Of a stretch of 42,136 nt of DNA, positions 29,826 through 31,902 are shown piece by piece. The translations under genes were made by a program, and so were the position numbers. Under the pieces are notes generated by a model, which saw only the letters and a list, made by a program, of their open reading frames with translations, did no database searches and was not told the origin of the DNA. Every line of letters starts with the position of its first letter. The first letter of the stretch is position 1. This DNA comes from Candidatus Acetothermia bacterium. Lineage in GTDB: Bacteria > Bipolaricaulota > Bipolaricaulia > Bipolaricaulales > Bipolaricaulaceae. Location of the stretch: assembly GCA_003562845.1 (NCBI GenBank), contig PWTL01000127.1, positions 1 through 42,136 of the forward strand, in the 5' to 3' direction.

Positions 29826-30625
29826 AGCTCCGCAAGGCGGCCCTCGGCCCACAGATCCCTGTGCGGAGGGACGAAGACGGACGGGTCGTGGTTCTGGAGG
29901 TACCGCTCACTCCCCTCGACGCAGCCGCAGTCAGAGAGGAGCTCTCTCTACGCCTGGCCGCGGGAGAGCGTGGACTAGTGGTGTTCACCCCCGATGCACA
30001 CGCGTCCGCGTGGGCCCTGCTCGACGACAAGAGAGCAGCGCTCTATCGCCGGGCCGACTACGTACTGTGCGATGGTGCCGGCTTGGCCTGGTCCTCCCGC
30101 GTGTTGGGGTGTCCTGTCCCGCGTACGCCGGGAGTGGATACTGCCTGGGAACTCTGCCGTCTTGCCCGCGAACTGGACTGGAGCGTGTACCTGCTCGGCG
30201 GAAGACCGGGGGTGGCGGCTCTCGCCGCGGGCAGGCTGCACAAAGAGCTGCCGGGCATTCGCCTTACGGGGCATCATCACGGGTACTTCCAGGGCCAGGG
30301 GCCCGCCGGCCAGGTGTCCTCCCTGACACCGGACCTGCTGCTTGTAGGCATGGGCTGCCCGCGTCAGGAGAGGTGGATCCTAGAGCAGAGGCACGGGGGG
30401 GCGGGCATCCTCATGGGCGTGGGGGGAGCGTTGGACCTGTGGGCGGGGTTCCACCGACGGGCTCCCCGTTCCCTGCGCAACGTGGGGTTGGAGTGGGCCT
30501 GGCGCACCCTACGAGAGCCACGTCGGGCAACACGTCTGTGGGCAATACCCTTTATCATCTACCAGACAGGGATCTGTCGACTGCGCCTCTTCCTCCAGTA
30601 TCGCACCCCCGCCCCAGGGAACTAG
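29822..30625 (+). CDS. WecG/TagA/CpsF-family glycosyltransferase
   Basis: Family GT26 enzyme that adds a sugar (ManNAc or ManNAcA in known members) to a lipid-linked sugar. It is 267 residues. Motifs: TPDAHASAWALLDDKRAALY, ADYVLCDGAGLAWSSRVLGC, VYLLGGRPGVAA, DLLLVGMGCPRQERWILEQ and GVGGALDLWAGFHRRAPRSL followed by NVGLEWAWRTLREPRR. It implies a surface polysaccharide or teichoic-acid-like polymer, though no other polymer genes are near. ATG overlaps the jag stop (ATGA). Its stop codon interlocks with that of secF. Confidence 0.9.
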   Translation: MKLRKAALGPQIPVRRDEDGRVVVLEVPLTPLDAAAVREELSLRLAAGERGLVVFTPDAHASAWALLDDKRAALYRRADYVLCDGAGLAWSSRVLGCPVPRTPGVDTAWELCRLARELDWSVYLLGGRPGVAALAAGRLHKELPGIRLTGHHHGYFQGQGPAGQVSSLTPDLLLVGMGCPRQERWILEQRHGGAGILMGVGGALDLWAGFHRRAPRSLRNVGLEWAWRTLREPRRATRLWAIPFIIYQTGICRLRLFLQYRTPAPGN

Positions 30626-31593
30626 CGGGCGGAGGCTCTCGCCTTGGATTTCTGCTGGGCGGCCGCCTTAGCCCACCAGCGCAGGATAGGGTTCGCCACA
30701 AAGAACGAGGAGTACGTCCCCACGATAACGCCAATCAGCAAGGCCAACGCGAACGGCTGCAGCGCTGGGCCGCCGAAGGCGTACAGGATGACCACGGGTA
30801 TGAGGGTGGACAGGCTGGTGTTGATCGACCGGCTGAGAGACTGGTTGGCCGAGCGATTTATCACGTCCACCACAGGCGCTCGTTTCATCCCCTTCAGGTT
30901 CTCCCTGACTCGGTCGAAGATGACGATGGTGTCGTTCAACGAGTAGCCGACGATGGTCAAAAAGCCCGCGATCACGGGCAGGCTTATCTCCACCTGAAAC
31001 AGCGCAAACAGGCCCAGGGCGATGGTTACATCGTGCACCAACGCGGCAATGGCCCCCACCGCATAGCGGAGACGAAACCGCCACGAGATGTACACCAAAA
31101 TAGCGCCCAGGGCTATGAGAACCGCCTGCCAGGCCCGATCGATCAGCTCGCGGGATACTTGGGCCCCCACACCTGTGTACGAAACGCCCAGCTCGCCGTT
31201 GTCGCGAAAGGCAGCCGGAAGGGCGACCCCTGCCGGGGGATCGGCCAGGTCGCTCCGGATCTGGCGCACCAGGTCCTCGTGCCTCTCTGGATCCACTCTC
31301 AACGTGATGATCTTCCCGGAGAGCATCACTCCGTCGCGCTCGAAGGTAGCATCCTGAATGTGGACTTCCGCCGGGAGCACCCCCTGGTCCTCGAACCGAG
31401 ACAGGTACAGGCGGAGGTCTTCGCTCGGCGCCTCCACTCCCTGTGGGTAAATGACGGTGAATTGCGATCCTCCTGTGAAATCCACACCCGCCCGCAGGCC
31501 AAGAACCGCCACTAGAAGAACGCTCAGCACGACCAACCCCACGGACAGAGGTCCGAGGTACTTGGCCTTGCCCAAGAAGTCGTAATTGGTCAT
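30622..31593 (-). CDS. secF: Protein translocase subunit SecF
   Basis: Works with SecD to pull preproteins across the membrane using the ion gradient. It is 323 residues with six membrane segments. After the first segment comes GVDFTGGSQFTVIYPQGVEA; the second block has the YISWRFRLRYAVGAIAALVHD motif, and FLTIVGYSLNDTIVIFDRVR and RSINTSLSTLIPV are strongly conserved SecF features. secD normally lies just upstream but is absent; rpsT is there instead, overlapping by 4 bases (ATGA). Confidence 0.95.
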   Translation of the reverse strand: MTNYDFLGKAKYLGPLSVGLVVLSVLLVAVLGLRAGVDFTGGSQFTVIYPQGVEAPSEDLRLYLSRFEDQGVLPAEVHIQDATFERDGVMLSGKIITLRVDPERHEDLVRQIRSDLADPPAGVALPAAFRDNGELGVSYTGVGAQVSRELIDRAWQAVLIALGAILVYISWRFRLRYAVGAIAALVHDVTIALGLFALFQVEISLPVIAGFLTIVGYSLNDTIVIFDRVRENLKGMKRAPVVDVINRSANQSLSRSINTSLSTLIPVVILYAFGGPALQPFALALLIGVIVGTYSSFFVANPILRWWAKAAAQQKSKARASAR

Positions 31594-31856
31594 CGTGGCA
31601 CGTTGCTCAGGCGCCTCACCATGCGCGACTTCAGGCGCCCCGCCCGGTTGGCATGGATCACCCCTCGCTGAGCCGCCTTGTCCACCGCCGCCTGGTACTG
31701 GGGCAGTAGCTTCTCCGCCTCGTCAGGTTGGCCGCTTTGCACCAGTCGCCCTATCTCCCTACGCCAGTACCGCACGGCGCTCCTTCTGAGGTCGTTTCGT
31801 GTCCGACGCCGGACGCTCTGACGCAATCGCTTTTTGGCCGAACGCGTATTGGGAAT
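31590..31856 (-). CDS. rpsT: 30S ribosomal protein S20, apparent AUU start
   Basis: Small-subunit protein binding the 5' and 3' minor domains of 16S rRNA. From the ATT at 31856 the protein is 88 residues, the normal S20 length, and reads (M)PNTRSAKKRLRQSVRRRTRN, ending in the classic GVIHANRAGRLKSRMVRRL region. The only strong ribosome site, AGGAGG (31866-31871), lies 9 bases before this ATT. An in-frame TTG at 31931 would add 25 residues unlike S20, and an ATG two bases after AGGAGG is out of frame. The gene is coupled to secF and divergent from nrdD. Confidence 0.92.
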   Translation of the reverse strand: MPNTRSAKKRLRQSVRRRTRNDLRRSAVRYWRREIGRLVQSGQPDEAEKLLPQYQAAVDKAAQRGVIHANRAGRLKSRMVRRLSNVPR

Positions 31857-31902
31857 CGTACATCGCCTCCTCGTTCCAAAAGGTAAGCCAAACCCGGCTC
31901 TG

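Follow-up and report, generated by a model that had tools for sequence, protein, structure and literature searches.

An AUU-class start codon of the ribosomal protein gene rpsT conserved across Bipolaricaulota and shared with infC

IF3 acts against initiation at any codon but AUG, GUG and UUG by destabilising the initiation complex, a property that is used in the self-control of its own gene, infC, and non-canonical starts have been found to be repressed by IF3 in both E. coli and Streptomyces (PMC5472188). Several genes are known in which such a codon is conserved. The GTC start of Streptomyces sigR represents a conserved non-canonical start that acts as a brake (PMC5472188). In S. aureus, conserved AUA and AUU starts with an extended Shine-Dalgarno sequence were characterized by Ribo-Ret and reporters and yielded ~10% of the AUG output, with up to 30% in rich medium in the case of ccpN (PMC13009471). 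In the gene for ribosomal protein bS20, rpsT, UUG or GUG starts occur in some gamma-proteobacteria and AUG starts in other proteobacteria, while starts at AUU, AUA or AUC (ATT, ATA or ATC in the DNA; hereafter AUH) are not mentioned (PMC10931766). Thus, the combination of an AUH start with a strong binding site is already known, as is, separately, a weak start of rpsT. In the literature searched, to which a study on genes preferring non-AUG starts (arXiv:2008.10758) did not belong, we found no description of AUH starts in rpsT or in any gene of Bipolaricaulota.

The rpsT locus analyzed here shares features with each of these systems. Like infC, which starts at AUU, AUA or AUC and is autoregulated by IF3, it is a translation-machinery gene combining an AUH start with a strong Shine-Dalgarno sequence; however, infC encodes the discriminating factor itself, whereas rpsT encodes a protein of the 30S subunit and its dependence on IF3 is putative. 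The E. coli rpsT is the same gene, encodes bS20 and has a weak start, UUG, in place of the AUU described here, with AUH in 88 of 90 related genes. IF3 treats UUG, unlike AUH, as a canonical codon, and E. coli belongs to an unrelated phylum with a different operon, rpsT of Bipolaricaulota being found with secF. With cvfC1 (AUU), ccpN (AUA) and infC (AUA) of S. aureus the locus has in common an AUH codon, extended anti-Shine-Dalgarno pairing and conservation among relatives (PMC13009471), although the S. aureus genes are regulators or others and not ribosomal proteins. In sigR, both codon and gene are different, and the effect of IF3 was shown, whereas for rpsT it is presumed. A phylum-wide AUH start in a ribosomal protein gene is unexpected for a protein required in ribosome amounts, and we regard the case as solid as an observation and moderate as a mechanism.

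The rpsT locus and the position of its start codon

The window, that is, the whole stretch of 42,136 nucleotides that was analyzed, belongs to a genome assembled into 127 contigs (1.45 Mb, 85% complete), which carries a single copy of the S20 gene. Among named genomes, the closest are MAGs of Bipolaricaulota, a phylum formerly called Acetothermia. The features of the locus are as follows.

31590..31856, minus strand: rpsT coding sequence (bS20, 88 residues, ATT start), from matches to TIGR00029 and PF01649 and an alignment of 21 relatives
31854..31856, minus strand: AUU start codon of rpsT; AUH in 88/90 relatives, ATT invariant in the family of the window
31862..31871, minus strand: extended Shine-Dalgarno sequence of rpsT, AGGAGGCGAT, with 9 nt between its core and the start; able to pair with the 16S 3' end GGATCACCTCCTTTCT of the complete relative G015, duplex of -15.1 kcal/mol
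31861..31863, minus strand: out-of-frame ATG, the first of 34 codons; a likely by-product of the extended Shine-Dalgarno sequence, found in 14/90 relatives only
30622..31593, minus strand: secF, its start overlapping the rpsT stop (ATGA); TIGR00966, 284.7 bits
32102..34225, plus strand: nrdD-type anaerobic ribonucleotide reductase, divergent neighbour; NF006126, 1005.9 bits

On the minus strand, the start region reads ACG AGG AGG CGA TGT ACG ATT CCC AAT ACG CGT TCG GCC AAA AAG, with AGGAGG at 31871-31866 followed by 9 bases (CGATGTACG) and by ATT at 31856-31854. The frame was identified as bS20 by TIGR00029 (79.5 bits, cut-off 33) and PF01649 (80.1 bits). The TIGR00029 match begins at position 2 of the profile with the Pro that immediately follows the ATT codon, and the PF01649 match begins on the same residue. 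ATT therefore occupies the position of the initiator Met, 9 bases past AGGAGG, which agrees with the original prediction made from this DNA. Since secF lies beside rpsT on the same strand in 77 of the 90 loci, the two genes likely form one operon. The rpsT leader is contained in the 245 bp that separate rpsT from the divergent nrdD, a match to which is found near rpsT in many of the 90 loci; a scan for sigma-70 promoters found nothing.

The only canonical in-frame codons in the window are a TTG at codon -25 (31931), which lacks a Shine-Dalgarno sequence, and a TTG at codon +10, from which initiation would remove the conserved N-terminus of S20. The earlier claim that no canonical codon gives a normal S20 was thus confirmed. 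One might still suppose that the true start lies upstream, at the TTG at -25 in the window and at a GTG at -3 in many relatives, and that S20 is longer, with ATT simply encoding an internal Ile. The frame of the window is indeed open for 39 codons upstream of ATT and includes this TTG, and in ~35 relatives the Shine-Dalgarno sequence GAGGTGAT includes an in-frame GTG, at codon -3. However, in 39 of the 88 AUH genes the stretch from the in-frame stop upstream to the AUH codon holds no ATG, GTG or TTG, and in 22 of the 88 this stop precedes the AUH codon by just 2-3 codons. An upstream extension would include the Shine-Dalgarno sequence in the coding region, and it shows no conservation. Codon usage also argues against this reading: internal Ile codons of the rpsT genes in the GC-rich family of the window are 86% ATC and 8% ATT, and Ile codons in the complete relative G015 (68% GC) are 94% ATC and 5% ATT, whereas the start in this family is always ATT. 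This indicates that the codon serves as a start and not as Ile. Furthermore, an rpsT gene of family f7 that has an ATG start (L179) likewise keeps a GTG at -3 inside its Shine-Dalgarno sequence, implying that the GTG belongs to the binding site. We therefore consider an upstream start very remote; for the ~35 genes with GTG at -3, judged individually by their sequence, a GTG start is possible.

Initiation downstream, at the TTG at codon +10, would result in a shortened S20. Such a TTG is found in the window and in some relatives, but in relatives without an upstream alternative the position of the next canonical codon varies from +10 to beyond +40, while residues 1-12 of S20 are well conserved in the alignment of 21 relatives and the Shine-Dalgarno spacing fits the AUH codon. 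The probability of this reading is negligible. On the basis of stops, spacing and conservation, an upstream GTG or TTG and a downstream TTG were both rejected as the start.

Start codons of rpsT across Bipolaricaulota and other phyla

S20 was found in 89 of 100 Bipolaricaulota genomes, and the start region was read in 90 rpsT genes, two of which come from one genome. The codon aligned with Met1 is ATT in 71 genes, ATA in 14, ATC in 3 and ATG in 2, so that AUH is present in 88 of the 90; all 36 rpsT genes counted in the family of the window have ATT. These relatives were inspected for ATG or TTG at this codon, and the AUU start put forward for the window is borne out by them. A sequence error or MAG artefact as the source of ATT is ruled out. 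By comparison, all 58 rpsT loci from other phyla (Atribacterota, Aerophobota, Bacillota, Legionella and other gamma-proteobacteria, Planctomycetota, Bacteroidota, Chloroflexota and Patescibacteria) have ATG, GTG or TTG, with the ATG of one locus, L063, aligning one codon further downstream.

The two ATG starts (G051 and G074) are confined to f7, one of nine families. This family is nested among AUH families in the S20 tree, which is built on few columns and has a support of 82/55 at the nearest fork. The nesting points to a reversion, and the ATG in f7 has probably arisen from AUH in this way. The distribution could also reflect a historical accident, in which drift fixed an ancestral AUH start without function; the pattern on the tree would follow from one origin at the base of the phylum. 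Yet AUG is one base change away and appears in only one family, and the extended Shine-Dalgarno sequence has been retained together with the codon. We consider drift highly unlikely, and the rarity of so accessible a codon suggests that the weak start is kept by selection.

The weak rpsT starts of unrelated phyla (UUG in E. coli, GUG in Legionella and AUH here) fit the convergence that had been proposed, and the AUH genes represent an independent and stronger case of the weak start of E. coli rpsT. That rpsT has become weak in different ways offers a comparative handle on the unsettled control of S20. On the practical side, gene callers restricted to ATG, GTG and TTG will miss or misplace rpsT in Bipolaricaulota.

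Some further observations concern individual genomes and families. Family f7, the only one with ATG in rpsT, also stands alone in having Ala at residue 2, where the other families have Pro. The two rpsT genes of G056 differ from each other and both start with ATT, reflecting either a second copy or a mixed bin. In one genome of the same genus as the window, the assembly contains no rpsT match.

The extended Shine-Dalgarno sequence and the rpsT leader

In a gap-free alignment of 49 rpsT genes, GG-n-GA is invariant and the next base is T in 43. This extended motif, GGnGAT, corresponds to the sequence complementary to the 3' end of the 16S rRNA in G015. The clades fall into two sets by the distance between GGAGG and the start, which is 9 in one and 8 in the other. 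Across the phylum, the duplex energy has a median of -13.7 kcal/mol. For rpsT of G015 it is -15.0 kcal/mol, tied second strongest of 54 genes for translation and transcription, compared to a median of -10.55 for the others, and GGnGAT is present in only 2 of the 54.

An out-of-frame ATG had been noted as a potential competitor of the AUU start. It does exist, at 31863-31861 and 2 nt past AGGAGG, although its frame comprises 34 codons plus stop and not 33. ATG is present at this position in only 14 of the 90 genes, where a G happens to follow GGnGAT, and is probably a by-product of the extended Shine-Dalgarno sequence. A competing or frameshifted use was rejected, given this lack of conservation and the poor placement so close to the Shine-Dalgarno sequence. 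In some genera, the Shine-Dalgarno sequence GGGGAT could pair with AUUCCC, formed by the start and the second codon, to give a short hairpin; other clades, inspected by eye, do not match, and the pairing is probably incidental.

The original prediction had also raised the possibility that the weak start is sensed by S20. S20 would then repress its own translation, as proposed for the UUG-initiated rpsT of E. coli, whose autoregulation reportedly changes upon mutation of the start or the leader (Parsons 1988, as related in PMC10931766 and PMC9845219). However, the E. coli autoregulation has been neither confirmed nor refuted, and binding of S20 to the mRNA was not found (PMC10931766). In Bipolaricaulota, the rpsT leader had no Rfam match up to E = 5, and clade-wise RNAalifold predictions gave folds that differ between clades, with none in common. 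Low z-scores relative to column shuffles were obtained in some clades, but this shuffle is unfair because conserved columns are clustered. Sensing by S20 thus finds no support here, and we regard direct repression of rpsT by S20 as possible and quite unlikely.

Restriction to rpsT and infC and a possible role of IF3

In order to place the rpsT start among those of other genes, ribosome, translation and transcription proteins of E. coli K-12 were used to find homologues in G015, and their start codons were checked around the expected Met. Starts were placed by eye, with rpsN, truB, infB, pheS, rbfA and ftsH left unplaced. The 52 placed starts consist of 41 ATG, 8 GTG and 3 TTG; of 54 genes, rpsT and infC alone have no canonical codon nearby. 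A generally relaxed choice of start codons in Bipolaricaulota is ruled out by these 52 genes. A genome-wide scan of G015 for AUH starts was too noisy to yield a gene list.

The infC gene has AUH 5-9 nt behind a Shine-Dalgarno sequence in all 38 Bipolaricaulota relatives inspected by eye, a few of which have canonical codons nearby as well, at poorer spacing. The infC start in the genome of the window, one of the 38, is ATA; within its family the infC start varies between ATT, ATC and ATA, unlike that of rpsT, which is always ATT. A special initiator tRNA reading AUH was considered and ruled out: G015 has three tRNAs with a CAT anticodon, one of which shows the initiator GGG/CCC anticodon stem and unpaired 1-72 ends, and none of its 46 tRNAs suggests an extra initiator or one dedicated to AUH.

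The comparison establishes the start position, the codon class, the extended Shine-Dalgarno sequence, their conservation and the sharing with infC only. Based on these sequence features, we think it likely that rpsT has a genuine weak AUU start that is held by selection, discriminated against by IF3 and offset by the extended Shine-Dalgarno sequence. The ordinary fMet-tRNA with its CAU anticodon would initiate at AUU through a mismatched third-position contact, and the extended helix with the 16S 3' tail would compensate for the weak codon. Selection may keep the start weak such that initiation is limited by codon discrimination, presumably above all by IF3. Sensing of IF3 at rpsT is plausible in that infC is the only other gene with such a start among the 54. 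With IF3 scarce relative to 30S subunits, IF3 and S20 would both be made faster, and with IF3 plentiful, infC and rpsT would both be throttled, so that initiation on rpsT is expected to follow the IF3:30S ratio as it does on infC. This would suggest that a gene of the 30S subunit can itself be under IF3 discrimination. Some observations count against this reading. A weak start is hard to reconcile with the large quantity of S20 required, and the f7 genome G051 combines ATG in rpsT with ATC in infC, so that the AUH starts of the two genes can be uncoupled. More tentatively, rpsT and infC might constitute a two-gene regulon throughout the phylum, in which AUH starts and extended Shine-Dalgarno sequences tie S20 supply and 30S assembly to the IF3:30S ratio.

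A serious rival to IF3 control, albeit an unlikely one, is a fixed brake without feedback, which might for example set the ratio of S20 to SecF in a translationally coupled rpsT-secF operon. The ATGA overlap of rpsT and secF in the window and the adjoining secF in 77 of the 90 loci are in line with such a brake. However, the 13 loci without a secF match still have AUH, and a weaker Shine-Dalgarno sequence would brake equally well, yet that of rpsT is among the strongest.

Aside from rpsT and infC, the peptide deformylase gene def of G015 and of G020 apparently starts at a CTG located 9 nt past AGGAGG. A short way upstream of this CTG lies an in-frame stop, and the interval contains no ATG, GTG or TTG. 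In relatives, def starts with ATG or TTG, and the CTG start is therefore not phylum-wide.
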